Source: Verrucomicrobiota bacterium
GTDB lineage: Bacteria; Verrucomicrobiota; Verrucomicrobiia; Verrucomicrobiales; Akkermansiaceae
Assembly (NCBI GenBank): GCA_016871685.1
Contig: VHCM01000012.1
Location: 1 to 32,779, forward strand
Reading direction: 5' to 3'
Length of the DNA: 32,779 bases
Shown: positions 2,031 through 25,284 of the stretch, one piece after another
How the letters are laid out: each line of letters begins with the position of its first letter
How positions within the stretch are numbered: position 1 is the first letter of the stretch
The notes under the pieces: generated by a model
Databases searched by the model: none
Told to the model about the DNA's origin: nothing
Seen by the model: only the letters and a program-made list of their open reading frames with translations
Position numbers and translations under genes: made by a program

Positions 2031-2876
2031 TCACCGGGTCGGCAGTCTTTCGATGCGTTTGCGCACGGGTTGGAGGATTCGTTCGATTGGATCGAGCACT
2101 TCCGGCGGGCATTCGGTTGCCGCCGACGCGCGGTCCTGATTCACAAAGTTCGACAATCCCCCGCCGGTCACCGGGCGGCCGAGCCAACGGGAGAAGGCGG
2201 CCAACTCGCCTTGCGGATCGCGGATCACATCTTCGAAGCGCGTGACGAATGCCGGCTTTCTCCGGGCCGCCATGATGTCGAGGTGATCCATGAGCAGGTC
2301 CAGTTGATGCGCCGTGGCGCACGCGTTGTGCAGCGGGATCGGATCCGCGGCGAGATTCGCCGGGTCGCGTCCGCAATGCCGGTACGCGGCGGGCAGGGTG
2401 AATCCGCCGATGTGCGATTCGATGCGCGCGGTTTGGTGGCTACGCCGCGTGGCGGTGTCCAACGGATCGCGAATCAGCACGGCATAACGCGCGTGCGGAA
2501 AAGTGGATCTCAGCTCGGGCAGGATGAAGAGGCATTCGGGCAGCTTGAATGCCCACGACGCCCTGCCTTTGTTGTGGATCGAGTGCAGAATCGTCCGCGC
2601 CGAGCAGCGCAGGTCGGATTCGATCAGCGCGGGCGAGCGGTCCTGGCGTTCGCCGAGTTTGCGCTCGACTGAGCGATAGACGGCGGGAGCCATGTCGAGT
2701 GAGTCCAGGCTCCGGTTAAGGCGGGTTCCCATCGAGACTCCGCAATCCAGCGCCATTTGCGAAAGCAGGCGGGATCCTCCGCCTCCCTTGCCGAGCAGGA
2801 TCAGCGGAGAATCGAGCAGCGGTTCCGGCCGCAGCAGCCGTCGGAGGTATCGGATGAAGCCGTGCATGGAAGTCAA
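2031..2876 (-). CDS. Sulfotransferase-like protein
   Basis: This protein of about 280 residues resembles the PAPS-dependent sulfotransferase fold. A Gly-rich loop after a hydrophobic strand near the N-terminus (LILLGKGGGGSRLLS, residues 25-39) sits where the 5'-phosphosulfate loop is expected, but lacks the classic PxSGTT spelling. A later strand, YAVLIRDPLDTATRRS, matches the RDPxD...S 3'-phosphate loop. Near the C-terminus, TRFEDVIRDPQGELAAFSRWLG (read as TRFEDVIRDP then GELAAFSRWLG) matches the YEDL..DP....F.LG pattern common in bacterial sulfotransferases. The start is uncertain: a TTG at 2876-2874 overlaps the upstream stop by four bases, and an ATG at 2867-2865 would remove three residues. 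It lies directly downstream of the GT61-like gene, suggesting that the pair modifies one glycan. The acceptor is unknown. Confidence 0.72.
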   Translation of the reverse strand: MTSMHGFIRYLRRLLRPEPLLDSPLILLGKGGGGSRLLSQMALDCGVSMGTRLNRSLDSLDMAPAVYRSVERKLGERQDRSPALIESDLRCSARTILHSIHNKGRASWAFKLPECLFILPELRSTFPHARYAVLIRDPLDTATRRSHQTARIESHIGGFTLPAAYRHCGRDPANLAADPIPLHNACATAHQLDLLMDHLDIMAARRKPAFVTRFEDVIRDPQGELAAFSRWLGRPVTGGGLSNFVNQDRASAATECPPEVLDPIERILQPVRKRIERLPTR

Positions 2877-4486
2877 CGGGTTGAATCATGATCCCGGCTT
2901 TGCGACAAGCGGTTGATTTCCCCCGCCAGACCTGCGGGGTCAAGTCCCCCGGCGAGGCGCAGGTGTCTCAGCCGCATCGGCCGGCGGGGGTCGTCCGTGG
3001 ATCGCTCGAGGCAGGTGAGGATGTGATGGTTGATTCCCTGTGTCTTGAACTGACGGATGAAATTCGTGTTGACCGGATTTCGTGAGAGCAGGATCACGCG
3101 CAGTTCCGGCCGCGGGTCGATCGCAAGGAGCAGATGCAGGGCGCTGCCCTGGGTGGCGCAGATGCACGACGCCTCGCGCAATGCCGCGAGTTGCTCCGCG
3201 AGCGTGTGTTGCTCCGGGTGGAAAATCCTCCATCCGTTCCGACGCAATGCATCCTCCAGCTCCCGCTCTTCCACGAAGAGCCTGAGTTCGCTGCCGAGTT
3301 TCGATCGGGACAGGTAAAGTTTCGCGTGTTGTTGGCCGCCGCCCGGATCCGGTGGTTTTGCATCACTGCCGCCGAGGATCGCGATCAGCCGTTTCACGAT
3401 TTCCGGATGATGCGCGTTCACATAGCCTCCGTTTCGCACGATTCCACCATTGAGCATCGACGGCGCCGGGGTCAGCAACTGGCCAACTTTCAGGTTTCGG
3501 GTGTTCACCGATGGAATGAGGAATTGCTCGTCTCCCAAGCCGAGAAGTTTGCATAGATCCGGGATGCGGTCTTGCAGGCATCGGTGGAGGACGATGGGGA
3601 TGTTCCGCAGTTCCGCGTTTCCAAACCACAGCAGCAACGGATAGATGGCGGAACAACCATCGGTCAGCAAGTGCCCGAAGTGCCGCAGCTCGATGTGGGC
3701 CAGATGCAGCGCACAGGGCAGGCTGAGGCAGTTGTCCGGGTCCGGCGGGATGATCCTTTTCGGCGATCCGTGAATGAATCTCCCGGCCTGATGGAAGAAG
3801 CAGCCGTCGAACGGCCGACCGTTCCGGTCGTGGGCGCCGTAGGCATCGGTGACCCACGCGTCCTGCGACAGGGTCATGCTCAAGACGCCCGGATCATCCG
3901 GAACCATGATCGCCGACCCGACTCCCGATTCGGCAATCTTGGCCTGCGGTATTGGCCGACCGGAGGTGAGATCGGCCGGATCAATCCGGTGGAAGGCAAC
4001 GAGCGCGCTGCGTGCCGACTGCATGTCAAGCAGCGGGCCGCATTCCGGGAAACGCTCCAATCCCGTCGCGGACAGCGCCGCCGCTTCCCGGAAGCGCATG
4101 AGCGAGACGAGGTCCTCGATCGCGCGGACCCATGCGGCCTCGCAGTCCGGGTGGTGGCGGATCCATTGCTCTGCATATCCGAGCGACGACTCGCGATCGT
4201 TGATGGCGCGTGATGCGTCGGAGGCGATGGCAAGCAGGGCGGGATGGGCGGGGTGTCGTTTGAGGCCTTCGCGGATCACGCTTTGCGCGTCCTCCGTTCG
4301 GCCCATTGCCGTCAAACTTCTCGTGGCCGCCATCCATCCATGGGGATTCTCCGGACGGCGGCCCATCCATTGCAATGCGAGCTGATGCGATACTTCGTGC
4401 ATCCCCAGCCGATTCAAGATCATCAGCGCCAGCCCGCATGCTCCCGCGCGCGGATGGTGCGTGTGACCGGGGGGCATCGGATCCAT
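2873..4486 (-). CDS. TPR-like N-terminus fused to a GT61-family-like glycosyltransferase domain
   Basis: The protein has 537 residues. The first 150 or so form helical repeats with TPR-like spacing (for example GRRPENPHGWMAATRSL and ALSATGLERFPECGPLL). The remainder resembles the GT61 (DUF563) glycosyltransferase domain: HFGHLLTDGCSAIYPLLLW corresponds to the NxxHxLxD entry motif, KLYLSRSK to the conserved Y-x-S-R strand, and the segment from LAEQLAALREASCICATQGS to ALHLLLAID matches the C-terminal EQ...A..I.G.HGA.L region. There is no signal peptide, so a cytoplasmic location is likely. The ATG at 4486 lies 33 bases after the prmA stop, and its own stop overlaps the sulfotransferase start. 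Sugar donor and acceptor cannot be inferred. Confidence 0.75.
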   Translation of the reverse strand: MDPMPPGHTHHPRAGACGLALMILNRLGMHEVSHQLALQWMGRRPENPHGWMAATRSLTAMGRTEDAQSVIREGLKRHPAHPALLAIASDASRAINDRESSLGYAEQWIRHHPDCEAAWVRAIEDLVSLMRFREAAALSATGLERFPECGPLLDMQSARSALVAFHRIDPADLTSGRPIPQAKIAESGVGSAIMVPDDPGVLSMTLSQDAWVTDAYGAHDRNGRPFDGCFFHQAGRFIHGSPKRIIPPDPDNCLSLPCALHLAHIELRHFGHLLTDGCSAIYPLLLWFGNAELRNIPIVLHRCLQDRIPDLCKLLGLGDEQFLIPSVNTRNLKVGQLLTPAPSMLNGGIVRNGGYVNAHHPEIVKRLIAILGGSDAKPPDPGGGQQHAKLYLSRSKLGSELRLFVEERELEDALRRNGWRIFHPEQHTLAEQLAALREASCICATQGSALHLLLAIDPRPELRVILLSRNPVNTNFIRQFKTQGINHHILTCLERSTDDPRRPMRLRHLRLAGGLDPAGLAGEINRLSQSRDHDSTR

Positions 4487-4519: not shown

Positions 4520-5377
4520 TCAACCGCCGACGAGGTCGACCATGCGTCCGCCTATGGCGGTGACCCAGCGGCCTTTGCGGACGACCTTGGTGAATCCGAG
4601 TCCGTTGCGTGCGGCGGCGGTGAACACGTCCCATGCCTGCGTGGCGAGAATGCCCGACGCGATGAGTGTGCCGCCCGGGGCGACGGCGCGCGCGATGACC
4701 GGCCATGCGTCGATGAGCACGGTGGAGAACAAGTTGGCCGCGACGACATCGTATCCGCGTCGGCGGGGTTTCCAGCGCAGCACGTCCTGACGGCGGATCG
4801 CGATGTCCGCGCAGTGGTTGCGGCGGGCGTTGCGCACGGCGACATCGACGGCCAGCGGATCGAAGTCGCAGGCGAAGACGTCGCGTGCGCCGAGCTTTCG
4901 CGCCGCGATGGCGAGCACGCCGGTGCCGCAGCCGAGGTCGGCCATGCTCCACGCGCTGTTTTGGCGTTGCCGTGCCGCGTCGGCGAGCAGGCGCAGGCAG
5001 GTGGCGGTGGTCGCGTGGTCGCCGGTGCCGAAGGCGAGTTCGGCAGGAATGGAAATGATGATGCGCCGCGGGTGGTCGCGACGCAGGGCGGCGAGTGCGT
5101 CGCGCCGGGTGATCGCCGTGACGAGGAGTGTGTCGCGCACGACGACCGGCCGTGGCGGTATCGGCGCGCGATTCCATTCGCCGCGCTTCACTTCGCGCAC
5201 CGATCCGCCACAGGTCCGCCGCAGGGCATCGGCCTCGCGACGCTGCGCGCAGAACAGGCTCAGACGCACGGACTCACCGTCACCGAGCCACTCGACCGCG
5301 AGATTCGGGTTTCCCTGAAGCCGTTGTTCCCACACGTCCAACTGGTCGCTCGGAGATCGCTTGGTCCAGACGAACAT
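4520..5377 (-). CDS. prmA: Ribosomal protein L11 methyltransferase
   Basis: PrmA trimethylates ribosomal protein L11 using S-adenosylmethionine. The 285-residue length fits the family (about 290). The diagnostic PrmA motif FGTGDHATT is at residues 116-124. The SAM-binding motif I, DLGCGTGVLAIAARKLGA, starts at residue 147 and is followed by the acidic strand ACDFDPLAV. The later strand VVAANLFSTVL fits the N-(I/L) substrate motif. The N-terminal 100 residues form the L11-recognition domain. The ATG at 5377 is 39 bases downstream of the tRNA-Gly gene on the same strand. The gene is probably the first member of a transcript that continues into the glycosyltransferase and sulfotransferase genes. 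Confidence 0.93.
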   Translation of the reverse strand: MFVWTKRSPSDQLDVWEQRLQGNPNLAVEWLGDGESVRLSLFCAQRREADALRRTCGGSVREVKRGEWNRAPIPPRPVVVRDTLLVTAITRRDALAALRRDHPRRIIISIPAELAFGTGDHATTATCLRLLADAARQRQNSAWSMADLGCGTGVLAIAARKLGARDVFACDFDPLAVDVAVRNARRNHCADIAIRRQDVLRWKPRRRGYDVVAANLFSTVLIDAWPVIARAVAPGGTLIASGILATQAWDVFTAAARNGLGFTKVVRKGRWVTAIGGRMVDLVGG

Positions 5378-5416
5378 GGCAGGATGGAAATCCGTGCCTC
5401 CCGGTGATTCGGGAGG

Positions 5417-5491
5417 TGGAGCGGGCGATGAGATTCGAACTCACGACATCCACCTTGGCAAGGTGGCGCTCTACCACTGAGCTACGCCCGC
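5417..5491 (-). tRNA. tRNA-Gly (anticodon GCC), CCA encoded
   Basis: Read on the minus strand, a full cloverleaf is visible. A 7-bp acceptor pairs GCGGGCG (5491-5485) with CGCCCGC (5427-5421). The D arm is GCTC...GAGC. The anticodon stem CCACC/GGTGG encloses the loop TTGCCAA, giving anticodon GCC. The T arm is GTGAG-TTCGAAT-CTCAT. The discriminator T and an encoded CCA end at 5417. It stands just upstream of prmA. Confidence 0.97.
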
Positions 5492-5513
5492 GTCGCGAAA
5501 CGCGTGGGAGGAG

Positions 5514-5541
5514 GTTCTACACCCGCGACGGCTCCGGGCAA
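5514..5541 (-). promoter_or_regulatory. Candidate sigma-70-type promoter for tRNA-Gly
   Basis: On the minus strand, TTGCCC (5541-5536) is followed after 16 bases by TAGAAC (5519-5514). The -10 box ends 22 bases before the mature tRNA 5' end. The -35 matches TTGACA at five of six positions and the -10 matches TATAAT at four of six. The position is right for a stable-RNA promoter, but this is pattern matching only. Confidence 0.4.
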
Positions 5542-5620
5542 GTGGAAATTTCACGGATCCGGCGGGGAGTTCGACTCCGGGTGCTTGCAAATCCGGGGAA
5601 ACCGCCCGACAGATGGGGGG

Positions 5621-6601
5621 ATGGACGATGCGGGAAATCCGGCACCTTGTTGCGCTGCCCGTCGCGGGGTCGTTGCCGCGACGGTGCCCTTGTCGGTGCC
5701 GCGACCTGCAGCCGATGCCGCGTTCTCATCCTCCGGGATGATCGCGCTGCCGGGCGGCGTGTTCCGCATGGGCTGTGAAGGTCCGCAGGCGTGGGCCGCC
5801 GATGGCGAAGGCCCGCTGCGCGACGTGAACGTTTCGCCGTTCCTGCTCGATGCCACAGCGGTGACCAACGCGCAATTTTCAGCCTTCGTCGAGGCGACCG
5901 GATATGTCACCGACTCAGAGCGCATCGGTTGGTCGTTCGTGTTTCTCGGTCAGCTTCCGAAATCACGCCGACGCAGACTCGCCGCGCGCCAGCGCGTCGA
6001 TGGACTCGAGTGGTGGGTGGGGGTCGAGGGCGCTTGCTGGAGCAAACCCGAAGGCCCGGGATCAACCATCCGGACGCGCATGGATCATCCGGTGGTCGGT
6101 GTGTCATGGAACGATGCGGCCGCCTACGCCGCTTGGGCGGGCAAGCGACTGCCCACCGAAGCCGAATGGGAATATGCCGCACGCTGCGGCACGACCACCT
6201 TGTTTCCCTGGGGCGACGAACTCGCGCCCGGCGGCAGGCACCACTGCAATGTGTGGCAAGGTGAATTCCCGCATCGCAACACCGCAGCCGACGGCTACCC
6301 ATGGACCGCGCCGGTCACCGCGTTCCGCAAGTCGGAGTGGGGGTTCCACAACCTGATCGGCAACGTCTGGGAATGGTGTGCCGATTGGTTTAGCCCGACC
6401 TGGCATGTGCCGGACACACCCCAGACGCGCATCAATCCGCGCGGGCCGACCACCGGTGAAGCAAAAGTGATCAAAGGCGGATCCTTTCTTTGCCACGCCA
6501 GCTATTGCAACCGCTACCGACCCGGGGCGCGCACCGCCAATACGCCGGATTCGGCCACCACACATATGGGCTTCCGTTGTGCGGCGGATGCGGTATCCTG
6601 A
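5621..6601 (+). CDS. Formylglycine-generating enzyme (sulfatase-modifying factor)
   Basis: FGE oxidises the active-site cysteine of sulfatases to C-alpha-formylglycine with O2. With the ATG at 5621 the protein has 326 residues; the frame is also open up to a GTG at 5504. The family core is clear: ALPGGVFRMGCEG, then HPVVGVSWNDAAAYAAWAGK, LPTEAEWEYAARCG, GNVWEWCADWF and KGGSFLCHASYCNRYRPGAR. The last motif holds the catalytic CxxxxC pair (Cys291 and Cys296, codons 6491-6493 and 6506-6508), as in human SUMF1 and aerobic bacterial FGEs. This is therefore a true FGE and not just an FGE-fold protein. An Ala/Val-rich stretch after two arginines near residues 14-34 may act as an export signal. The stop overlaps an ATG of the sulfatase frame (TGATG), which supports a shared operon. 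Confidence 0.9.
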   Translation: MDDAGNPAPCCAARRGVVAATVPLSVPRPAADAAFSSSGMIALPGGVFRMGCEGPQAWAADGEGPLRDVNVSPFLLDATAVTNAQFSAFVEATGYVTDSERIGWSFVFLGQLPKSRRRRLAARQRVDGLEWWVGVEGACWSKPEGPGSTIRTRMDHPVVGVSWNDAAAYAAWAGKRLPTEAEWEYAARCGTTTLFPWGDELAPGGRHHCNVWQGEFPHRNTAADGYPWTAPVTAFRKSEWGFHNLIGNVWEWCADWFSPTWHVPDTPQTRINPRGPTTGEAKVIKGGSFLCHASYCNRYRPGARTANTPDSATTHMGFRCAADAVS

Positions 6602-6648
6602 TGGAACGCCGCGATTGCGGCAAGGGTTTGTCCATCCCGTTTCGTTTC

Positions 6649-8151
6649 ATGAATCCTCCTTCATCATCCGCGCCGCCGCGATCGCGGCGTGACGTGCTCG
6701 GCCTGCTGGCCGCCGGTGCGGCCGGAGGCTTGCTGATGCCGCAGCGGTCGAGGGGCGAGGTGCCTGCGCCGCTCCGTCCGCCCAACGTCCTCTTCGTTTT
6801 CAGCGACCAGCAGAAGAACCGCGCGTGGCAGATGAACAACCCGCTCATCTCCACCCCGCGGCTGATGCAGCTCGCCGCGCAGGGCACGGTCGTGCAGAAC
6901 GCGGTTTCGCAAACACCGATTTGCTCGCCCTACCGCGCGATGTTGATGAGCGGGCAATATCCTCGCACCAGCGGAGTGATCGTCAATGACCAGCGGCTCG
7001 CCGCTAATGGCGACCGCCTCAGCGAGGTGACCTCGCGCCTCGGCTATCGCAACGGGTACATCGGCAAGTGGCATATCAGCGCGGCATCGGGCAACTCCGT
7101 GTCGGCGAGCCTGCGCCACGGATTCACGGAAACGTGGAAAGCCTACGAGGCGATGCACAACTACAGCAGCGGCACCGCATGGTACGACGAGGCCAACCGC
7201 GCCGTGAGCCTCACCCGCTACCGCAACTACCAGGAGGCCGACGAGGTGGTGAGGTTCCTCAACGACCACGCCGCCAATCACGCGGACGACCCGTTCTTCC
7301 TCGTCTGGTCGCTCGGGCCGCCGCACAACCCGTACAGCGACTACCACAAGACGCAGCCTTCGCCGAATTTCTCGCACTATCGCTCGCTGCTCAACGATCC
7401 GGTGAACCGTCCGCCGAACTACGCGGGCGGCGAGTCGCTCGACAGTGTGGCGGGTTACTACACGATGTGCAGCGGCATCGACATGGCGCTCGGCCAGGTG
7501 CTCAACCGACTGGACGCGCTGGGCATCGCCGACGACACGATCGTCGTCTACACCTCCGACCACGGTGATATGCTCGGTTCCTACGGGCTGAAGCTCAAAC
7601 AGAAGCCGTGGGAGGAATCGATCAACATTCCGTTCGTCATCCGCTACCCGGGCGTGGTTCCCGCGGGCCGGGTGAGCGACTTGTTGCTCGGCTCCATCGA
7701 CCTCATGCCGACGCTGCTCGGGTTGATTGGGCGGGCCTCGGCGATTCCGTCGTCGGTGCAGGGCATGGATTTGTCGGCCGCGCTCTGCGGTGTGCCCGGC
7801 GCGCCCGAGCGCGACGCATTGTGGATCGGCGTGCCAGTCGTCTCCTCGGCGAGTTCGCTGCCCGCGCGTCCCGCCGCCGCATTCACCGGCGTGCGCACTA
7901 AGCGCCACACCTATGCGAGTTTCAAGGCGGGCACCGTCGTCGCGGGATACGGATCCAAGGGCGGCTACATCCTCCACGACAACGTCAATGATCCGTGGCA
8001 GATGGAAAACCTCGTCGACAAACCGGGCAGTGAGGCGTTGCAGGCGAACCTGCACGACCGGTTGACGGCTCTCAATCTCGAGGTCGGAGAATCGTCGTTC
8101 ACCCTGCCCGCGCGACCCGTCTCCCGCGGACTCTACATCAAGTCGCGATGA
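6649..8151 (+). CDS. Tat-signal sulfatase (Cys-type, S1 family)
   Basis: This 500-residue exported sulfatase should hydrolyse sulfate esters; the substrate is not readable from sequence. A Tat-like signal, RSRRDVLGLLAAGAAGGLL (residues 11-29), favours the ATG at 6649. An alternative ATG at 6601 overlaps the FGE stop and would add 16 residues. The sulfatase signature is CSPYRAMLMSGQYPRTSG, with the modified cysteine at residue 92 (codon 6922-6924), fitting C-x-P-x-R. Metal and substrate residues follow the family pattern: FVFSDQQ near residue 50, GKWHIS, and TSDHGDMLGSYG. The Cys-type site needs FGE, which is encoded immediately upstream. The stop overlaps the next start (ATGA). Confidence 0.92.
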   Translation: MNPPSSSAPPRSRRDVLGLLAAGAAGGLLMPQRSRGEVPAPLRPPNVLFVFSDQQKNRAWQMNNPLISTPRLMQLAAQGTVVQNAVSQTPICSPYRAMLMSGQYPRTSGVIVNDQRLAANGDRLSEVTSRLGYRNGYIGKWHISAASGNSVSASLRHGFTETWKAYEAMHNYSSGTAWYDEANRAVSLTRYRNYQEADEVVRFLNDHAANHADDPFFLVWSLGPPHNPYSDYHKTQPSPNFSHYRSLLNDPVNRPPNYAGGESLDSVAGYYTMCSGIDMALGQVLNRLDALGIADDTIVVYTSDHGDMLGSYGLKLKQKPWEESINIPFVIRYPGVVPAGRVSDLLLGSIDLMPTLLGLIGRASAIPSSVQGMDLSAALCGVPGAPERDALWIGVPVVSSASSLPARPAAAFTGVRTKRHTYASFKAGTVVAGYGSKGGYILHDNVNDPWQMENLVDKPGSEALQANLHDRLTALNLEVGESSFTLPARPVSRGLYIKSR

Positions 8152-9722
8152 ACACGATCGTCGTTCCTTCCATCGTCGTGGTTGCGATGCTTGTGCCGGG
8201 GTTGGTTTGCGACGCGTGCGCCGGATTGCTGCGCTTCGATGGGGAACCTGCGGCAGTGATGACCGAGGACCGCTGGATCGACGGTCCGGGAAACGGCCGG
8301 TTCGCCTTGCCGTGGGGCATTGCGGAAGTGCAACAGTCCGCGGGTTTGTCCGGCAGTGCTGGGCTCGCGATCGCACCGGGCTCCGCAGTCGCCTGGGAGC
8401 GTCCGTCGCTCGTCGCGCCGGTCAACAGTGGTTCCGTCACGATCACCACCCACCGGCTCGTGGCGTTCGCCACCGAAAACGATTTCCGGACCGGCACCAA
8501 CGGTACGGTGATCGGCACCGGCGAACCGGCGCTCACCGCGTTCTCGGACGGTACTTCGTACTTTCGCGTCGAGCCGGACGACGGACGCCTGCTCGAATTT
8601 GACAGTGTCACGGACTGGCTCAATCCCGCCCATGCGGTGCGCGACCACGGCGTGACTTTCGCCGGTACCGACGTGCGCTGCGCCTATGCGAGGCCGGGTG
8701 CGTACTTTCTCCAGCTTTCAGAGGCCGCGGGACCCTTCATTGCCGACGATATCATCCGTTTTTCCACCGTCGCCGATCTCGTCGCCGGCGCCAACGGAAC
8801 GGTGATCGCCAACGGGGCGGGACGGACAATCGATGCTCTGCATAACGGATCCAAGGTCTACAAGATCGACGGCAATGGCGACCTGCAGTCCTACATCGGT
8901 GATTCGATTTTCTTCGACACCACGATCCTAGGTCCGTTCCACCGCGGCACGGATTTCACCACGACGTTCGCCGACGCCGGTTCGTTCTACGTCCAGTACC
9001 CGTGGCGGTACACGACGGTTCCGGAGAACGGGGCGGGTGTCCGCAGGCTCAGCACGTTCCACCTGATGCTGAGCGATCCCGATGCCGCGCCTCCGGTCAC
9101 GCCGGCCGAGACGCTGCGCGCCGTGCTGCATGTCGGGGCCGACGGGCTTTCCGCGCTCGATGGCAACGGCACCGGCGGCGGAACCTGGCGTCTTCTCGCG
9201 CCCACCCGGTCTGACCGGTTCCACCGCGTTTCGATCCTCGAAGACCACCTGACGGGGACGTATGAAGTGCATCTCGATGCCGTGCGAATCGCTTCGGGGC
9301 TTGGCTTCAAGAACGCCGATGCCGGTAACGGGCTTTCATTCACCCGCATTGAATCCGGCTCGGCGGCGTGGATTGACCAACTGGCCGAAACGCAGTGGCT
9401 TGAGGGACCTGCGGACGATTCCGATGGCGATGGCGCGGATGATGCTGCGGAATGGACCGCCGGCACCGACGCGGCGGACCCCGCCGATGTGCTGCGGCTC
9501 GCCATTCAACCAGTGTCGCCGCATGCGCGCGCCGGTGTCTTGGCCGGTTGGCGCAGCTGTCCGGGCCGGAGCTACACGCTCGAGGCATCCGGCGGAGTCG
9601 GCGCATGGTCGGCGCTGCCGCAGGGCGTGGTTCCGGGCGACGGCTTCCCGGTGCAGCGCCTGCTCCAACTCCCGGCAGGAACCGACCGCTGGTTCCTGCG
9701 CTTGAAAGTCGCGCATCCATGA
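8148..9722 (+). CDS. Secreted repeat protein with LamG-like region, calcium-loop motif and C-terminal module
   Basis: I do not recognise the family of this 524-residue protein. An N-terminal hydrophobic signal ends near residue 26. Residues 106-190 and 205-285 look like two copies of one unit about 99 residues apart: FATENDFRTGTNGTVIGTG matches FSTVADLVAGANGTVIANG, and the copies end in ARPGAYFLQL and ADAGSFYVQY. Residues 320-415 resemble a LamG/concanavalin-like sandwich (FHRVSILEDHLTGTYEVHLD). DSDGDGADDAAEWTAGTDAADP (from residue 424; acidic loop then EW then GTD) is a thrombospondin-3-like calcium loop typical of Verrucomicrobia secreted proteins, followed by a C-terminal module of about 75 residues. 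Its ATG overlaps the sulfatase stop, so it is translated from the FGE/sulfatase transcript and may be a substrate-binding or surface partner. Confidence 0.75.
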   Translation: MNTIVVPSIVVVAMLVPGLVCDACAGLLRFDGEPAAVMTEDRWIDGPGNGRFALPWGIAEVQQSAGLSGSAGLAIAPGSAVAWERPSLVAPVNSGSVTITTHRLVAFATENDFRTGTNGTVIGTGEPALTAFSDGTSYFRVEPDDGRLLEFDSVTDWLNPAHAVRDHGVTFAGTDVRCAYARPGAYFLQLSEAAGPFIADDIIRFSTVADLVAGANGTVIANGAGRTIDALHNGSKVYKIDGNGDLQSYIGDSIFFDTTILGPFHRGTDFTTTFADAGSFYVQYPWRYTTVPENGAGVRRLSTFHLMLSDPDAAPPVTPAETLRAVLHVGADGLSALDGNGTGGGTWRLLAPTRSDRFHRVSILEDHLTGTYEVHLDAVRIASGLGFKNADAGNGLSFTRIESGSAAWIDQLAETQWLEGPADDSDGDGADDAAEWTAGTDAADPADVLRLAIQPVSPHARAGVLAGWRSCPGRSYTLEASGGVGAWSALPQGVVPGDGFPVQRLLQLPAGTDRWFLRLKVAHP

Positions 9723-9751
9723 GGCGGACTGGTGGCACGTCCCGCCCGACC

Positions 9752-10540
9752 ATGTCCGACAAACTCGCCCAGATCCTCGCCACCAAGCGTCTTGAAGTGG
9801 AGGCGTTGCTGCCGCGCGCCGCCAACCTGCGTGCCGCCGCGCTCCAGCGCAACGACTTCGGTGGATTCCGCGCCGCGCTCGACCGCGGGCCCGGCCGCCT
9901 CGGCGTGATCGCGGAGGTGAAGAAAGCCTCGCCCTCCGCCGGCCTCATCGATCCGTCATTCGATCCGGAACGCCAGGCGCGCCGCTACCTGGAAGGCGGC
10001 GCGTCGTGTCTGTCGGTGCTCACCGATGAGCAATACTTCCAAGGCTCGCTCCACGACCTCTCGCGCATCTCGCGGTTTTCCACCGCGCCGCTGCTGCGCA
10101 AGGATTTCACCATTCATGAAGTGCAGATCCACGAGGCATCCGTCGCCGGTGCCGATGCGATCCTGCTCATCGTCGCCGCGCTCGACGATGATGCGTTGCG
10201 CCGCCTGCATGACGAGGCAAAGTCGTTGATGCTCGACGTGCTGGTCGAGGTGCACGACCTGCCGGAAATGGAACGCGCTCTCGAACTCGGCGCGGACCTC
10301 ATCGGCGTCAACAACCGCAACCTCAAGACCTTCGAAGTCGATCTCGAAACCACCGCCCGGCTCGCCGAGGAAGTGCCCGACGACGTGCTGCTGGTCTCCG
10401 AAAGCGGGATCCGCTCCACCGACGATGCCCGCCGCGTGCTCGAGGCCGGTGCCAACGCGGTGCTCATCGGCGAGGCTCTCATGCGCGCCCATGATCCGTC
10501 GCGCGAAGTCGAAGCGTATCTCGCCATCACGGAAGACTGA
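9752..10540 (+). CDS. trpC: Indole-3-glycerol phosphate synthase
   Basis: TrpC closes the indole ring in tryptophan synthesis, converting carboxyphenylaminodeoxyribulose phosphate to indole-3-glycerol phosphate. The 262-residue (beta/alpha)8 enzyme shows every family block: VIAEVKKASPSAG, YLEGGASCLSVLTDEQYFQG, PLLRKDFTIHEVQIHEA, GADAILLIVAAL, GVNNRNLKTFEVDL and VSESGI. The catalytic lysines of KKASPS and LLRKDF are present, as is the ESGI glutamate. I chose the ATG at 9752 (MSDKLAQILATK), the usual TrpC beginning. An in-frame ATG at 9719 overlaps the previous stop and would add 11 residues. No other trp gene is in the window, so the pathway is dispersed here. Confidence 0.95.
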   Translation: MSDKLAQILATKRLEVEALLPRAANLRAAALQRNDFGGFRAALDRGPGRLGVIAEVKKASPSAGLIDPSFDPERQARRYLEGGASCLSVLTDEQYFQGSLHDLSRISRFSTAPLLRKDFTIHEVQIHEASVAGADAILLIVAALDDDALRRLHDEAKSLMLDVLVEVHDLPEMERALELGADLIGVNNRNLKTFEVDLETTARLAEEVPDDVLLVSESGIRSTDDARRVLEAGANAVLIGEALMRAHDPSREVEAYLAITED

Positions 10541-10602
10541 CCATCCGGATCGCGCGGTGCATCAACCGGTCCCGCACGGGCGCTCCGCCGAACACGGCCT
10601 CG

Positions 10603-11826
10603 TCAACGCGTCACGATCCAGGCGGTCAGGATCGCGGACGCGAGCAACACCAGCAGGGCGAGCGATCCCGCGATGCGGTCGGTGAAGGTGGTGCGCGGCC
10701 GCATCGCCGAGGTCGATTTGGGGAATACCACCACCGCGTAGAGCATGCCGGCGAGGCATCCGCCCGCGTGCGCCGCATTGTCGATGAAGCGGTAGCCGAT
10801 CACACCGATCAGCCCGGTGAGCACCAATCCGGCGAGCAGTCGGCGCGTCGCCTTGCGCGGCACCAAGCGGCCGTGAAGCGCTTCGAACACCAGCAGAAAC
10901 CCCAGCCATCCCATGAGTCCGCCCGAGGCGCCCACCGTGGGTGCCTCGAGAAAACGGGCCGACGCTTCGCCGCCGATGCAGGCCGAGAACAGGAAGACCA
11001 ACGGCACGTGCGGCCAGCGGGCGAACACCTCGACGCGCTTGCCCAGATACAACAGCGCCGCCGCATTCATCAGGAAATGCAGCGGGTTGCCGTGCAGCAT
11101 CGGTGCCGTGAAAAGCCGCCACCATTCACCGGACAGATAGCGGTCCTTGATTAACCCGGCCGCCATCAGGGATTCGCCGGGCAACAACTGCGCCACGCCC
11201 GCAAGCGCGATGATGCCGAGCAGCAGCCGCGTCACCGGCGCGCGTTGCAGTTCGAGCCACGCCTCGAAGCGCAGCGGTGCGGTCCGTGCGGACAGGTCGT
11301 CCACGCGCATCCCGAGCCATGCCGCCGCCTGCTTGCGCGACTGGTACCACGGGATGCAGGCGAAGATCAGGAACATCAGCAGGGCGATGCCCACCGATAC
11401 CGAGGCGGTGACCGCCTGGATCGCGAAGTGCAGCCGCTCGGGCCAGGCCGCCGGTTGTGGCAAGATCCTCCATGCCTGCCAGCCCAGCCAGAGCGCGGTG
11501 AGGCCGAACAACAGGCCAAACCAGCGCAGCCGGTCGGCGGCGTCGAGTTGTTCGAACAACGCGCGGCGCCTTCGCGCTTCGATCACCGCCGCCGCCGCAA
11601 CGGCCAGTTCCTCGGGCAGTCGCATCCATGACGATGCCGCTGTCCACACCAGCGAAACGCCGGCGCCTTTGTCTTCGCGGATCGCTTCGATCAGCGCCGC
11701 CTCGTCCACCGCATGGTGGAGCCGGCCTTTGAAATCCACCCAACCGAACCCCGGCGGTGCCGCGGGGAACGCCTCATCGCGGGCCCACACCGGGCCCCAT
11801 TCGTCTTCGCTGACATCTTGAGCCAC
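10603..11826 (-). CDS. Rhomboid family intramembrane serine protease with an extra N-terminal domain
   Basis: This is a 407-residue membrane protease. The C-terminal half holds the rhomboid core: WWRLFTAPMLHGNPLHFLMN with the HxxxxHxxxN residues (His245, His250, Asn254), GASGGLMG with the nucleophile Ser301, and NAAHAGGCLAG with the partner His353. Substrates are unknown. Before the core are two hydrophobic segments (about 103-117 and 137-160) and a soluble N-terminus of about 75 residues (WARDEAFPAAPPGFGWVDF, later VSLVWTAASSWMRLPEEL) that I cannot assign. The start is a GTG at 11826, 12 bases after the secG stop on the same strand, so the two genes are probably co-transcribed. The catalytic dyad is intact, so an active protease is likely. 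Confidence 0.9.
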   Translation of the reverse strand: MAQDVSEDEWGPVWARDEAFPAAPPGFGWVDFKGRLHHAVDEAALIEAIREDKGAGVSLVWTAASSWMRLPEELAVAAAAVIEARRRRALFEQLDAADRLRWFGLLFGLTALWLGWQAWRILPQPAAWPERLHFAIQAVTASVSVGIALLMFLIFACIPWYQSRKQAAAWLGMRVDDLSARTAPLRFEAWLELQRAPVTRLLLGIIALAGVAQLLPGESLMAAGLIKDRYLSGEWWRLFTAPMLHGNPLHFLMNAAALLYLGKRVEVFARWPHVPLVFLFSACIGGEASARFLEAPTVGASGGLMGWLGFLLVFEALHGRLVPRKATRRLLAGLVLTGLIGVIGYRFIDNAAHAGGCLAGMLYAVVVFPKSTSAMRPRTTFTDRIAGSLALLVLLASAILTAWIVTR

Positions 11827-12426: not shown

Positions 12427-12584
12427 GGGCCAGGGACCATGCAGGCTCCGGCGGACCTTGTAAAGCCGCGAGTGCAGCGGCACGTAGGCTCGTTTTCCGG
12501 CAAATCCTCGGGGATTTCCGGCGATCTGGCCCGGTCGGCCGGGTGTGGCTGACTCCGATTGCGCTTGACATCCGGGGAAATCAC

Positions 12585-12750
12585 GCGAGATGCTCGCCGC
12601 GACCAACCACGAGGGCGTCATGGAATCCGGTGAGAACCCGGAACAGTCGCGCTGCGGTATCCGGTTGCGAATCCCACAATGCCAATCGCCTCGATGCAGG
12701 CGGTGAAGGCGGGAGGAGCGATAACCGGGAGTCCGAATACTTGCGCCCCC
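12585..12750 (+). promoter_or_regulatory. Cobalamin riboswitch (AdoCbl/B12-box class)
   Basis: The RNA matches the conserved core of the cobalamin riboswitch. GGAATCCGGTGAGAACCCGG (12622-12641) is the GGGAA..GGTGxAAxTCC segment, followed by AACAGTCGCGCTGCGGTATCCGG (12642-12664, the GCxGC..GTA region), and the B12 box appears as AGTCCGAATACTTGCG (12730-12745). The 5' arm GATGCTC with GAGGGCGTC (about 12589-12619) fits P2. It lies 144 bases upstream of a BtuB-like receptor gene, its classic target. A TTGACA hexamer at 12565-12570 could be the -35 box, but I see no convincing -10. The outer boundaries are approximate. Confidence 0.85.
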
Positions 12751-12893
12751 GTTGCTCGTCAGCCGCCCGCCGGATCCGTCCGGAAGGCGGATCCAACTGG
12801 ACCCTCCGCGAAAGGGGGTTCGACGAGAGACGACCGCCCGGTGTTCGGGACGGCCATCTCTTCGTGCATCCACATCCAACCGAAGAGAATCCC
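12751..12893 (+). promoter_or_regulatory. Riboswitch expression platform / btuB leader
   Basis: The leader between the aptamer and the receptor ATG holds two short hairpins. GGATCCG (12772-12778) pairs with CGGATCC (12788-12794) around a 9-base loop, and ACCCTC (12801-12806) pairs with GGGGGT (12814-12819). Neither is followed by a T run, so intrinsic termination is unlikely, and control of translation fits better (inference). A purine-rich GAAGAGAA at 12882-12889 is the probable ribosome binding site before the ATG at 12894. Confidence 0.45.
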
Positions 12894-14678
12894 ATGAAAC
12901 CAAGATCCTGCCGCGGCGGGGGGCTTGCCCTCGCCCTGGCCTCACTATGCCCGGCGCTCCTGCCGGGATCCGCCAGCCACGCCGCGTCCGCGGTGAGCCT
13001 CGACCCCGTTGTCGTCTCTGCCCTGCGCGTCCCGCGTGAAGCCTCGACAGTAACCTCGTGGGTCACCCGCCTCGATCCAAAGCAGCTCGAAGCAAGCGGC
13101 ATCCTCCAGCTCCGCGACGCACTCAACGCCTCGCCTGGGGTGATTTCCACCTCGACCGGGGGTGAAACCGGCGCGCTCGGGTCAGTCTTCATCCGCGGCA
13201 CGACGACCAACGATTCGCAGATCGTCATCGACGGCATGCGTTTGAGTGATTCGTCAACCCCGCTTGGCAATGTTCTTTCGGCTGCACGCACCACCGATAT
13301 CGGCGGGCTCGAGATCCTGCGAGGCCCGCAGGGCGCGATCTACGGCGGCGAGTCGATCGGTGGCGTGTTGTGGATGGAAACCCCGCGCGGATCCGGCGAT
13401 CCACGCGGGTCGGCGACCGTCGAGGCGGGTTCGTTCCACTCGATCTCCGGGCGCACAAGAGCGGACGGCGAGGTCGGGAAGATGAGTTATCATTTCAGTG
13501 GTGGTTACGAACAAACCCACAATGACGCGCCGAACCAACATTTCGACCAGAGCGCTGTGGCACTGCGCGTCGAGGGCGAGGTCGATCCGGTCTGGACGAT
13601 CGGCACCACCCTTCGCGCGAATGATTCGTATTACGAAAATCTTGGCAATTCGGATGACCGTCTCGACGCCTCGCTCGTGACGCTTTATGCTACGGGAACC
13701 TTTTCCGATGTCTGGACCGGGCGTTTTCTTGCGGGTCATCACCAAGAGTTTTACGACAGCGATTCGTCGTTCGGGAACTACGGCAGCGACCTGCGCGACG
13801 CCAGCATCTCGACAGACCAGGAGATCAAGCTCTCGGATGATGTCCGCCTGCTCGCCGGTGCCTACGGCCATCGCAGCAACTATCAGAACACCATTGGAGC
13901 GGATGAGCAGCGCGATCGCTTTGGCATTCACTCCGCAATCGAGTGGGATGCAACCGAAACCCTGACCACCATGGCGGCGCTGCGATGGGAAGACTATGAA
14001 GCGTATGGCGACGAGCTCACCTGGCGGGTGGGCGCGATTCAGGGGTTGGTGCCGTCGACCTCGATTCGCGGCGGCATCGGTACATCGTTCCGCTCGCCGA
14101 CGTACCTTGACCTCTTTGGCTCGTCGTTCGGTGCCGGCAATCCAAACCTCGAGGCGGAGCACGCCACCGGTTGGGACATCGGCATCGCGCACAAGGTCTT
14201 CGGCCATCAATTCGAGGCAGCCTGGTTTGAAAACCAGATTGAAGACCGGATCAAGTCGTTCCCGACGCCACCGGTCAACCTTCCCGGCGAAACGCGCACG
14301 CAGGGCACCGAGTTCGCCCTGCTTGGAGCAGCCGCGGAGGAGACGGTCTCCTACCGCATCGCATGGACCTGGTTGCACGAGAGTCTCAGCGATCAACCAC
14401 GCAATGCGGCGACGGCATCGCTCGATTGGAGGGCGACCGAAAAATCGCGGATCGGCATCGGCGCAACGCATCTCGCCAGCCATTCATGGGGTGGTGATCC
14501 GATCGACGCCTACACGGTTGCCCGCCTCTACGGATCCTACCAGCTCACCGAACAAGTGAAACTCCACGCCCGCATCGAAAATGCGTTCGACGTCGATTAC
14601 GAGTTGTCCGACTTCTACGGCCAATCGATCAAAGGCACCGGCCGCGGCATCTACGCCGGCATCACGATCGACTGGTGA
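12894..14678 (+). CDS. TonB-dependent outer-membrane receptor, BtuB-like (cobalamin)
   Basis: This 594-residue outer-membrane receptor should import its ligand using TonB energy. A signal peptide covers residues 1-30, followed by a TonB box-like LDPVVVSA (36-43). The plug domain follows (about 50-160): LRDALNASPGVI, FIRGTTTNDSQIVIDGMRL and LEILRGPQGAIYGGESIGGV are the classic plug motifs. The rest is beta-barrel with the late motif RIENAFDVDYEL and a terminal aromatic (ITIDW) suited to BAM recognition. The length is close to E. coli BtuB (614). The upstream cobalamin riboswitch is the main reason to assign B12 or another corrinoid as ligand; the receptor sequence alone would not settle it. 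No btuF, btuC or btuD is in the window. Confidence 0.88.
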   Translation: MKPRSCRGGGLALALASLCPALLPGSASHAASAVSLDPVVVSALRVPREASTVTSWVTRLDPKQLEASGILQLRDALNASPGVISTSTGGETGALGSVFIRGTTTNDSQIVIDGMRLSDSSTPLGNVLSAARTTDIGGLEILRGPQGAIYGGESIGGVLWMETPRGSGDPRGSATVEAGSFHSISGRTRADGEVGKMSYHFSGGYEQTHNDAPNQHFDQSAVALRVEGEVDPVWTIGTTLRANDSYYENLGNSDDRLDASLVTLYATGTFSDVWTGRFLAGHHQEFYDSDSSFGNYGSDLRDASISTDQEIKLSDDVRLLAGAYGHRSNYQNTIGADEQRDRFGIHSAIEWDATETLTTMAALRWEDYEAYGDELTWRVGAIQGLVPSTSIRGGIGTSFRSPTYLDLFGSSFGAGNPNLEAEHATGWDIGIAHKVFGHQFEAAWFENQIEDRIKSFPTPPVNLPGETRTQGTEFALLGAAAEETVSYRIAWTWLHESLSDQPRNAATASLDWRATEKSRIGIGATHLASHSWGGDPIDAYTVARLYGSYQLTEQVKLHARIENAFDVDYELSDFYGQSIKGTGRGIYAGITIDW

Positions 14679-20543: not shown

Positions 20544-21290
20544 ATGAACGACACCACCGCGAACGCCGTGCTCCGTGCCGACGGCCTGAGAAAAACCTAT
20601 GGCGGCCGCGCGGTCGTCGACGGCGTGACGCTCACCGTGAAACCCCGCGAAATCGTCGGCCTACTCGGTCCCAACGGTGCCGGCAAGACCACCTCGTTCT
20701 ACATGATCGCCGGTCTCGTCCCTGCCGACTCGGGTGAGGTGGGATTTCTCGGTCAGGACATCTCGAAGCTGCCGATGCACCGCCGTGCGCGTCTCGGACT
20801 CGGCTACCTACCGCAGGAGGAATCCGTTTTCCGCAAACTGAGCGTGCGCGACAACCTGCTCGCCATCCTCGAGACGCGTCCGGGCCTCGGCCGCGCCGCC
20901 CGCCACGAGCGCGCCGACGAGCTGATGCGCCGCTTCGGCATCGAAAAACTCGCCGACTCGCCCGCGATCACGCTTTCCGGCGGCGAGAAGCGACGTCTGG
21001 CCATCGCCCGCTCGCTCTGCACCGATCCCAAACTGCTGATGCTCGACGAACCGTTCGCCGGAATCGATCCGATCGCCGTCAAGGACATCCAGCGCATCGT
21101 GCTCGAACTGCGCGACCGCGACGGCCTGGGGATCCTGATCACCGACCACTCGGTGCGCGAAACGCTGAGCATCACCGACCGCGCGTTCCTCATCCACGAC
21201 GGCCGCGTCATCCTCGAGGGCAACTCCGCGGAACTCGTGAACCATCCCGTCGCCCGCGAGTTCTACCTCGGCGAGGATTTTTCGATGTGA
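20544..21290 (+). CDS. lptB: LPS export ABC transporter ATP-binding protein
   Basis: LptB drives LPS extraction from the inner membrane with LptF and LptG. The 248-residue protein has Walker A GPNGAGKT (42-49), the Q-loop YLPQEESVFRKLSVRDNL (Gln91), the signature LSGGEKRR (144-151), Walker B LLMLDEP (164-170) and the switch His202 in ITDHSVRETL. GYLPQEESVFRKLSV, the SVRETL motif and a C-terminal VAREFYLGEDF separate LptB from other small ABC ATPases. It starts 20 bases after the LptC/LptA-like gene. LptF, LptG and LptD are not in the window. Confidence 0.95.
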   Translation: MNDTTANAVLRADGLRKTYGGRAVVDGVTLTVKPREIVGLLGPNGAGKTTSFYMIAGLVPADSGEVGFLGQDISKLPMHRRARLGLGYLPQEESVFRKLSVRDNLLAILETRPGLGRAARHERADELMRRFGIEKLADSPAITLSGGEKRRLAIARSLCTDPKLLMLDEPFAGIDPIAVKDIQRIVLELRDRDGLGILITDHSVRETLSITDRAFLIHDGRVILEGNSAELVNHPVAREFYLGEDFSM

Positions 21291-22506: not shown

Positions 22507-24942
22507 TTATTGCGTCTCCGAGCCATCCCGCAGACCGATCTCGAGGCGGAAGAAGCCGGCGGGGCCGGTCAGCGGGAGGCGGATGCGCCCGGAAACCGGA
22601 TCGTGAAGCAGCTCCGGGCTGCCGGCATCGATCGTGCGCCACGAGGCAAGCGGGACGCGAAGGTCCGACGTGTGGCGAATGCGCCAGAAGACATCCGTCA
22701 CCTTGGGATCCGCGGCAAACGTGTAATCGGAACCCGTGATCCGCGGCCATCGTGACGGGTCGTGTTCATGCGGCCCGAATCCGAAGAAGTATCTCCATCC
22801 GTTGGGCATCTCGCCGGGACGAACAGCCTCGCCAAACTGACGCGGCAGACCATCGGGCATGGTCATCGCCCACTGCGCGTAGTTGGAGGCGAACCGCCTC
22901 GCCGTGATGGTGAACCTGAGATCCACGTTAGGCGTGATTCCCGATTCATTGAGACGGCTTCCACCGTCGTAGGCATTCGCGAGCCAGCGCTGGGCCGGAA
23001 TGCCCTGATTGGCCGCAAGGGGCGAGCCGGCGGCATCGCTGAACGCGGCGAAGCAGGTGTTTCCCGACTCCATCCACACGTCGCTGAAGTTCCAGGACAT
23101 CGCCAGCCCTTGGACACGTGGATTGGAAACGGCATTGGTGGAGACGGCGAGGATGCGTCCGCGGTTCGTCCGGTTGGTGAAGCCGTCGTACAACGTCAGG
23201 TGGGCCGAACTTTCCCCGCTGGTGGCGGCCGCCGCATAAAACGTGATCGCTTCCAGAAACCAGCCGCCATCCTGCGCCGGGACCGTGAATGACTGACCGA
23301 GATTCTGACTGCCGGAGTCTCCATCGGTATCGGGTTGTTCGACGATGACGACGGTCGGATTCGGGGAGGACAGCGTGGTTGCGGATCGCGTGCCGGACCA
23401 ATCGGTGGTGTTGCCGAGCAGGTCCCTCATCCGCACTTGGTAGGTGTGCGATGTCTCGCCGACCAGTCCCGAGTCGATGTGGCGCGGCGTCGCTTGCCAC
23501 GCGCTGTCGCGCGACAAGGTGACGTTCCTGAACTGGTATTCGACCGGGCCGTTGCCATCGGTTGCTGGGGCGGCGGCCATCCCGATGCTGCCAAGCCCGG
23601 CGGCCGCCGGCGGCGATGCCCAGACCGCCGGATCCTGCCGCGGCGCCAGCACGCGGTCCGCTCGCGCGTCACCGAATGATGCCAGCGTACCGGTCAGCAG
23701 ATCAAAGGCCGCTCGCGCCTCCGTATCGAGCGCGCCCGTGTTGAGCGGCCGTTGCTCGAGGACGTCGCTGGCAAGGTCGTGGAAATTCCCCGTTGCATAC
23801 AGCTTGAAGCGCCGGGTCTGGGCAAACTCGCGCACGCCGGCCTCGGTGGCGTTCTGGGGTTTGTACCAACAATAACTCCATTCACGGGGCGTGCCGCTGT
23901 CACCGACCAACTGCGGTAGAAAACTCCTGCCGTCGAGATCGCCGGGAGCCACGGCCCCCACCGCCTCGCACAACGTGGGAAACACGTCGGTGGTGTCGAT
24001 CAGGTCGTCGCAGACGCGGCCGGCCGCCACGGCCTTCGGCCAATTCACAATGAACGGGGTGTGCGTGCCGTCCATGGTCGTCTTGCCCTTGCCCCCTTGC
24101 ACCGACTTGCCGTCGAACATCGAGGTGATCGACGAGAGCGTGCCGTTGTCGCCAAGAAACAGGATCAGCGTGTTGTCACGGATGCCCAGGGCGTCGAGCT
24201 TGTCAACGATTCTGCCGACGAGCTTGTCCATGAATTCCACCATGCCGCGGAAGTAGATGGCGTTGTTGAGTTCCTTCGTCGCTGCAGGGTTGTAATCCGG
24301 ATGATCGGGCGGAGGCGTGAACGGGTCGTGTGTGAGCAGCATCGGATAGTACACCAGGAACGGCCCGGCTTGGTTCCGCTCGATGAACTCGATGATTTTT
24401 TCGCTGACCACTTCCGGTCCGTACGTCCCGGCGGGGAAGTTGACTTGGGTGTTCGCGAGTCCGTCCGCGGGGATCAACGCTTCGAATCCCGGCGCGTAGT
24501 AGCGGTTCGGCCGCCGGTTGAGCTGCCAGAGGAAATACTCGTCGAACCCGAAGCGGACCGGCCCTTCGTATCCGCCCTCCAACTGCCATTTGCCGGCGAT
24601 GAATGTCTTGTAGCCCGCGTCACGGAGCACGTTGGCGAAGGTGGTTTGTCCTTCATGCAGGATGCCGAACACGTCATAATTCCGGACGTTGTATCTTCCG
24701 GTCATCAACTGGACGCGGGTCGGCGTGCAAAGGGGTTGTCAGTGGGCATGACGGAACCGCATGCCCGACGCCGCCAGCGAATCGAGACGCGGCGTGGCGT
24801 AGGACTGGCCGCCATTGGCACCGATCGTTTCGTAGCCGAGATCATCGGCCATGATCACCACGAGGTTGGGCCGCGGATCGGCCGCCCATGCGGCACATGC
24901 CGTGGCCGCCAGACAGGCGATCATGCTCAAACCACGCCTCAC
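22507..24942 (-). pseudogene. Large multidomain sulfatase interrupted by one in-frame TGA
   Basis: Joined through the stop, this is an 811-codon gene. A GTG at 24942 begins a good signal peptide ([19 protein letters not shown]), followed by [20 protein letters not shown]. Codon 68 is TGA (24741-24739). The frame then continues QPLCTPTRVQLMTGRYNVRN with the formylglycine cysteine at codon 72 (24729-24727). Sulfatase motifs continue intact (AGKWQLEGG, FLGDNGT, KGKTTMDGTHTPF). Beyond about residue 430 come an FN3-like domain (about 455-525), a beta-sandwich-like region (about 530-690) and a C-terminal module (about 730-811). Only one base separates TGA from Ser (TCA) or Cys codons. The intact downstream frame suggests a recent nonsense change or a sequence error. 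Downstream initiation at the MMTGRYN ATGs (24708) would lack the active site. Confidence 0.82.
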
Positions 24943-25284
24943 CCTGTCGCGCGGGGTGGCGAGCGCGCATGGCGGTGCTGGTCGGGCTGCAGGGGATGGG
25001 TTGGCCGAGCCCACGGACCCACCACGATCGTTTCAGCACGGCCTGTAAATGTTTTTTGAGCGGGAGAGGCTTCCCGGACGCGGTGTTTCCCGAGTTGCCC
25101 GGGGAAGGCCCGTGTTCGAGAAGGTCGATTCGACGGCCAGTATCAGGATGGCGTGGCTTTCGCGGCGTTTGGATTTCCCTCTTCCGCTCCGCTGGATCGC
25201 CGATCCGCGCATGGCGGTGGGGATCAGGGAATTACGCGAACGCCCGGTTGCATCGCGTCGGAAAATTTGGCATCTTGAGCGCAC
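24943..25284. other. Divergent intergenic region of 342 bases
   Basis: This is the gap between the broken sulfatase (-) and the SprT-like gene (+). It must hold both promoters, but I see no strong -35/-10 pair. A run of six T at 25052-25057 is followed by CGGGA...TCCCG (25061-25076 region), which is the wrong order for a terminator on the plus strand. An 83-codon frame from 25049 to 25300 has Arg-rich composition and no recognisable motif, so I do not call it a gene. Confidence 0.5.

Follow-up and report, generated by a model that had tools for sequence, protein, structure and literature searches.

What role can be assigned to a predicted exported protein whose gene begins within the end of a sulfatase gene? 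The question is raised by a locus of three co-directional genes on contig VHCM01000012.1 of a Verrucomicrobiota bacterium (Akkermansiaceae; assembly GCA_016871685.1), of which a stretch of 32,779 nucleotides, here called the window, was analyzed. The genes encode a formylglycine-generating enzyme (FGE; 5621..6601, plus strand), an S1-type Cys sulfatase probably exported by the twin-arginine translocation (Tat) route (6601..8151, plus strand) and a probably exported modular protein of 524 amino acids (aa), the product of gene 3 (8148..9722, plus strand). They lie between a divergent tRNA-Gly gene (5417-5491, minus strand) and trpC (IGPS; 9752-10540, plus strand), recognized by a family match, and all three predicted genes are genuine. 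A model's reading of the letters and open reading frames (the sequence-only reading) had proposed that the third protein acts with the sulfatase, for instance by binding the sulfated polymer. We consider it somewhat probable that the locus is a seemingly lineage-specific co-directional cassette of familiar parts, in which the FGE activates the sulfatase, the sulfatase is exported and the gene 3 product binds glycan. For gene 3, a role in extracellular glycan binding is the likeliest; that it cooperates with the sulfatase may fairly be guessed from fusion proteins, although missing conservation weighs against this.

The first two genes were assigned on the basis of family matches and solved relatives. 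The FGE frame ends at 6601 and its likely start is ATG 5621. Its product matches PF03781 at E 1e-80 (271.6 bits versus a cut-off of 23.3, positions 3-254 of 255), and its best solved relative is 6s07 (E 6e-120, match over residues 36-323). Both catalytic cysteines named in the sequence-only reading were confirmed: the GGSxxCxxxxC pattern is present (GGSFLCHASYCNR), and its cysteine pair (GGSFLCHASYC; 6491..6508, plus strand, codons 6491-6493 and 6506-6508) aligns at the same spacing with that of 6s07 (SUMF1/PF03781), from which nothing notable differs. Gene 1 is, on these matches, a genuine FGE with predicted oxidation of the CxPxR cysteine.

The gene 2 product contains a PF00884 domain (E 2e-49, 168.9 bits versus a cut-off of 25) and an SGSH_C domain (E 5e-12). 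Its CSPYR active-site motif (6922..6936, plus strand), whose cysteine (TGC, 6922-6924) is predicted to become formylglycine, agrees with the S1 motif C/S-x-P/A-x-R, and by these features it is classified as an ordinary S1-type Cys sulfatase. The closest solved relatives by sequence are 8di0 (named arylsulfatase; 5e-55), 6j66 (9e-54) and, ranking third, 6s21 (E 1e-51). The endo-4-O-sulfatases 6s21 and 6j66 align with it over the catalytic and C-terminal parts, at a large distance (the best match to a solved sulfatase gives 190 bits over 415 residues). We take 6s21 to be BT3349. According to PMC6994673, BT3349 belongs to subfamily S1_27. The Cys type claimed in the sequence-only reading therefore stands; the claimed Tat signal is visible as a twin-Arg motif, SRRDVL, in the leader (RSRRDVLGLLAAG), and its score of 12.1 bits lies under both curated cut-offs (Pfam 22.7, NCBIfam 16.7).

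No Pfam or NCBIfam family matches gene 3 above cut-off, and no full-length homologue was found in 38 relatives, 386 other genomes of the phylum and 72 other genomes of the genus, the last set giving three weak partial matches. A search of genome_contigs yielded 22 pattern matches, none of them confirmed. Matches at E ≤ 0.001 were obtained in 24 of the 38 relatives, nearly always to residues ~380 or 400 to 524. The protein begins with a probable Sec signal peptide (8148..8222, plus strand, as are all features of this gene), with possible cleavage after ACA at residue 25 and an n-region lacking Lys and Arg. Its description in the sequence-only reading as an exported repeat protein was correct with respect to the repeats, while export is a probable feature judged by eye. 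Self-alignment revealed two repeats of ~70 residues (8457..8663 and 8751..8972), with a Smith-Waterman score of 76 versus 28.5 ± 5.4 for shuffled sequences, 0 of 1000 of which reached 76. Weak matches to the repeat region in a porin, a FecR-domain protein and a protein with no Pfam match were inspected, and none is convincing kin.

Downstream of the repeats lies the second half of a LamG-like (ConA-like) domain (residues 314-411; 9087..9380), matched at E 3e-14 by a profile built without gene 3. The wider LamG-like stretch (residues ~283-412) has matches in 10 of the 386 other phylum genomes, and three further genomes gave weak matches to the N-terminal part only. One member of this group, L028, matches Laminin_G_3 at E 1e-4 (23.0 bits versus a cut-off of 27.6). 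A model of another, L022, built together with 45 other sequences (pLDDT 80.9), matches jelly rolls of ConA-like lectins and polysaccharide enzymes at Z 12-17 over 155-188 residues, including sialidase lectin domains, TtX122, galactocerebrosidase, glucuronan lyase, alginate lyase and beta-glucanases. These matches extend mostly over model residues 13-230 and thus leave out the tail. As modelled, the L022 domain is a ConA-like jelly roll, with which gene 3 has the second half in common. Proteins of the L022 type (383 aa, from another family of the phylum) carry the LamG-like second half, a TSP3 motif and a tail in the same order as gene 3, but they lack its repeats, and no sulfatase or FGE was found in the 14 kb fetched around L022. 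Folds of the ConA type often bind glycans.

The C-terminal part of gene 3 (9414..9710) consists of a TSP3-like motif and a tail module ending in FLRLKV. It matches profile A1, composed of 39 sequences, at E 1e-23, and a profile from which the gene 3 row was omitted scores it at 65.8 bits. This tail, in which TSP3 is followed by roughly PGRxYxxExSxDLxxW...RFxR, is also carried by sulfatases. Profile A1 has 39 matches at E ≤ 0.001 in the own genome, 33 of which extend past the TSP3 part into the tail proper, and a match at E ≤ 1e-8 is present in 87 of the 194 phylum genomes searched, counting the own genome. In the 44 regions fetched around the best 45 of 66 non-own places, the match ends at most 15 residues from the C-terminus in 43 of 52 matching proteins. 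Past the TSP3 start the tail has at most weak, partial Pfam or NCBIfam matches, and a narrow literature search found no paper title describing such a tail. We consider it worth naming, as a module that may act in export, retention or binding.

Several known families were considered as kin of the whole tail. TSP3_bac is matched at E ≤ 0.1 by 29 of the 39 tail members, DUF3999 by eight (best E 0.0016; E 3e-4 in the tail of the own-genome sulfatase C71), F5/8-type domains by three (best 0.07) and Amuc_1099 by 25 (best E 3e-6). Five of six members looked at singly had the Amuc_1099 match, always within residues 1-28, which correspond to the TSP3 stretch. The tail profile also weakly matches glucanase/chitosanase chains (E 6e-4), which presumably bear a discoidin or CBM32-like label. 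DUF3999, F5/8-type, Amuc_1099 and the glucanase/chitosanase chains were not accepted as relatives of the whole module.

The tail and a LamG-type domain are joined to sulfatases elsewhere in the lineage. Six tail frames, in four of the 44 tail regions, include a sulfatase domain, which Pfam confirmed in all three that were scanned. In the own genome, a tail match lies in the reading frame of four of the eight sulfatases: it is C-terminal in C71 and C42, precedes the sulfatase domain in C47, and is C-terminal and weak (16.5 bits) in C113. The last protein contains Sulfatase, Big_9 and Laminin_G_3 domains above cut-off and PA14 below it, while L093, from a congener, combines Sulfatase, PA14, Big_9, Laminin_G_3, TSP3_bac and the tail in one chain. 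No tail match was found in the window sulfatase. In both fusions a LamG-type domain followed by the tail (with TSP3 in L093) is tied to a sulfatase, and the corresponding parts of gene 3 lie next to one; however, they are single chains whereas two genes are present here, the gene 3 domain has no Laminin_G_3 match, and the tail of C113 is weak. Because of these single-chain fusions, a glycan-binding role beside sulfatases stays plausible.

FGE-family enzymes are cytosolic and oxygen-dependent. In the arrangement that we favour, the cytosolic FGE would turn the CSPYR cysteine into formylglycine before export, and the sulfatase would then leave the cytoplasm, probably via Tat, and cleave sulfate esters off a polysaccharide. 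The gene 3 product would be exported separately and bind glycans at the cell surface or outside the cell. Binding would fall to its ConA-like part, with the two repeats perhaps forming or supporting some of the binding surface. Ahead of the tail, a common C-terminal module, the TSP3-like motif would act as a linker stiffened by calcium. The protein may in this way help the sulfatase to meet its substrate. If so, gene 3 would supply in trans what the sulfatase-lectin fusions of this lineage carry in one chain, and it would provide a handle on how these bacteria hold polysaccharide enzymes at the surface.

The overlapping junctions emphasized in the sequence-only reading are only partly certain. 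The ATGA overlap that joins the sulfatase end (8151) with the gene 3 start (8148) is certain, and TGATG (6599-6603) forms the FGE/sulfatase junction only if the sulfatase starts at ATG 6601; with the alternative in-frame ATG 6649, the genes would be 47 bases apart and the leader preceding the twin-Arg motif would be shorter. The trpC gene follows 29 bases past gene 3 or, with in-frame ATG 9719 as the start, again through ATGA. A 4-base overlap at 2873/2876 of the window connects sulfotransferase and glycosyltransferase 61 genes, both with family matches, and in a further one, at 21287/21290, one of the frames lacks a Pfam match and may not be real. Given the other window overlap and the closeness of trpC, tight junctions alone do not set the FGE, sulfatase and gene 3 apart. 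A simple pattern scan of 5300-10750 found no promoter- or terminator-like sites, so a single transcript is neither supported nor excluded by it.

Conservation of the gene order was one of the checks proposed in the sequence-only reading. Sixty-six neighbourhoods of sulfatase relatives, defined by the flanks as fetched (some on short contigs), were assembled from 42 of the 43 loci of one search (one was dropped for lack of a frame, and two of the remaining 42 share one contig), eight non-own matches of a class search in which at most four candidates were scored per genome, and 16 further regions. The FGE-sulfatase-gene 3 order was absent from all 66; an FGE-family gene was present near four of the relatives, a tail protein near two and the LamG-like domain near none. 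The sequence-only reading would have put the link down to chance if gene 3 homologues were never found beside sulfatases. Of 16 LamG-type places, 13 were fetched, from 10 genomes with flanks of 4-16 kb and including one doubtful 100-aa frame (L206); neither a sulfatase nor an FGE was present in any flank, which speaks largely against a conserved link, although the single-chain fusions do exist. The 44 tail regions (495,552 bases) contain four separate sulfatase frames, one of them weak; with a background of at least 1139 sulfatase matches in ~167 Mb, about 3.4 or more would be expected, so this is the level of chance. The three-gene arrangement thus seems, as far as searched, private to this lineage, with familiar parts.

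These absences weigh against the proposed cassette, as do several properties of gene 3 itself. It gave no match to Laminin_G_3 (PF13385) up to E 1, its TSP3_bac score is 14.8 bits versus a cut-off of 25, and a model from its single sequence was useless (pLDDT 36.7). The tail is weak in one own-genome fusion and N-terminal to the sulfatase domain in another, and as it occurs on many other proteins, sharing it says little about a link with the sulfatase. In a Foldseek search with the L022 model, TM-scores by query length did not exceed 0.44 among the 50 chains listed, the best being clostridial NTNH, toxin-binding-domain chains, TtX122, an arabinanase domain and sialidases; we read these as the common jelly-roll type only. 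An alignment by eye places a possible first half of the LamG-like domain at residues 26-92 (8223..8423), which would make the two repeats an insertion in a split domain. With a first-half profile built without gene 3, residues 26-100 obtain 3.3 bits, a score equalled by 36 of 983 scored shuffles, and because of this weak result the split domain is only a possibility. Alignment A2, with gene 3 as its first sequence, also puts the N-terminal part elsewhere than the alignment by eye.

What, then, could gene 3 be other than a glycan-binding member of the cassette? The chances are close to even that it encodes an unrelated exported surface protein, whose overlap with the sulfatase results from gene packing in a compact genome and whose gene run trpC merely continues. 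The overlap of unrelated genes at 2873/2876, the proximity of trpC, the absence of the three-gene order from all 66 neighbourhoods and the position of the LamG-like homologues away from sulfatases at all 13 loci are in agreement with this explanation, but the fusions of sulfatase, Laminin_G_3 and tail put such modules beside sulfatases in this very lineage, and the glycan binding common among ConA-like folds also speaks against it. The loss of support for the split domain makes the unrelated neighbour slightly more credible and lowers our confidence both in the cassette of FGE, sulfatase and glycan-binding protein and in a third explanation. According to the latter, which we find doubtful, the gene 3 product is an accessory subunit acting in trans: what other sulfatases carry in cis, a lectin part with a tail, would here be a separate protein, translationally coupled to the sulfatase and exported by Sec next to its Tat-exported partner. 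The own-genome sulfatase with Laminin_G_3 and a weak tail in one chain, its clearer counterpart in the congener, and the ATGA overlap of gene 3 with a sulfatase that itself has no tail match fit such a division, but unlike the fusions gene 3 has no Laminin_G_3 match, and the split pair was seen in no relative examined. Its most elaborate form, a two-part extracellular sulfatase with a Tat-exported catalytic protein and a coupled Sec-exported lectin subunit, the ConA-like domain of which is split by two inserted repeats that make up the substrate-specific surface and is followed by a lineage-wide tail, is improbable, the more so because of the weak result of the first-half profile. The proposal of the sequence-only reading that gene 3 acts with the sulfatase or binds its polymer has thus gained from the ConA-like domain and the fusions and lost from the missing gene order and the LamG-like loci.

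The sequence-only reading had also suggested that the Tyr of CSPYR may mark an unusual sulfatase subfamily, and altered recognition by the FGE might be expected in that case. Tyr does occur in only 12 of the 64 relatives with the motif read, the residue before Arg being otherwise Ala (26), Ser (10), His (6), Phe (4), Thr (3), Asn (2) or Cys (1). However, all eight of the closest class relatives found (E ≤ 1e-75) have Tyr, and two solved relatives show SSPHR and ATPFR at the active site. The published consensus C/S-X-P/A-S/X-R (PMC10154612) leaves this position free and so admits Tyr. We regard the unusual subfamily as highly improbable and the suggestion as largely refuted.

The relation of the FGE to its neighbour is probably not an exclusive one. 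The own assembly (95.6% complete) has three PF03781 matches, and the cysteine pair was seen only in the window FGE; it was not seen in the stretches read of the PF03781 genes on contigs 26 and 84. Eight sulfatases were found in the assembly at E ≤ 1e-10, seven of them with a Cys-x-P-x-R motif. Since it is the sole FGE found for eight sulfatases, the window FGE is unlikely to be dedicated to the adjacent one and most likely serves other Cys-type sulfatases too. Dedicated FGE-sulfatase pairing was also rejected as a general rule, with FGE-family genes in four of the 66 sulfatase flanks and sulfatases at one of the five FGE loci fetched with wide flanks (of 17 non-own FGE places). Among the 38 relatives the best match of the FGE (58% identity) comes from a genome of another family, and own-genus matches reach 44-50%, which hints at horizontal replacement.

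Two further FGE-family observations were made. In a Rhodospirillales metagenome-assembled genome (locus L219, 4875-7530, plus strand) an FGE gene immediately precedes a related sulfatase gene in the same orientation; this is the sole such case of the 66 and indicates that the FGE-sulfatase pair exists elsewhere too. The FGE-like gene of contig 26 has no visible cysteine pair and contains an in-frame TGA (GGS*YHP), at a position where Trp is presumably expected.

A second sulfatase (PF00884) in the window, at 22507-25059 on the minus strand, contains an in-frame TGA (24741-24739) four codons before the cysteine of its CTPTR motif; a nonsense mutation or a faulty assembly is the probable cause. 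Selenocysteine or another recoding was considered for this codon and dropped. Among 15 matches to the tRNA-Sec family, ARAGORN identified the three with the highest scores as tRNA-Leu (0.2 bits above the gathering score), tRNA-Ser and tRNA-Gly, the remaining 12 having scored lower than these, and TGA is the stop codon of the FGE, sulfatase and gene 3 alike. Recoding is also disfavoured by the differing residues that we would expect at the two in-frame TGA codons, presumably Ser or Ala here versus Trp in the contig 26 gene.

Close to the three-gene locus, at 2031-4486 (minus strand), a sulfotransferase-family gene (PF13469) shares the 4-base overlap described above with a glycosyltransferase-61/TPR gene; in view of this pair, the organism may also produce sulfated glycans. 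A cobalamin riboswitch (12598-12762, plus strand, 68 bits) was detected within the 5′ end of a TonB-dependent receptor frame (12543-14678), so the true start of the receptor gene should fall after the riboswitch.

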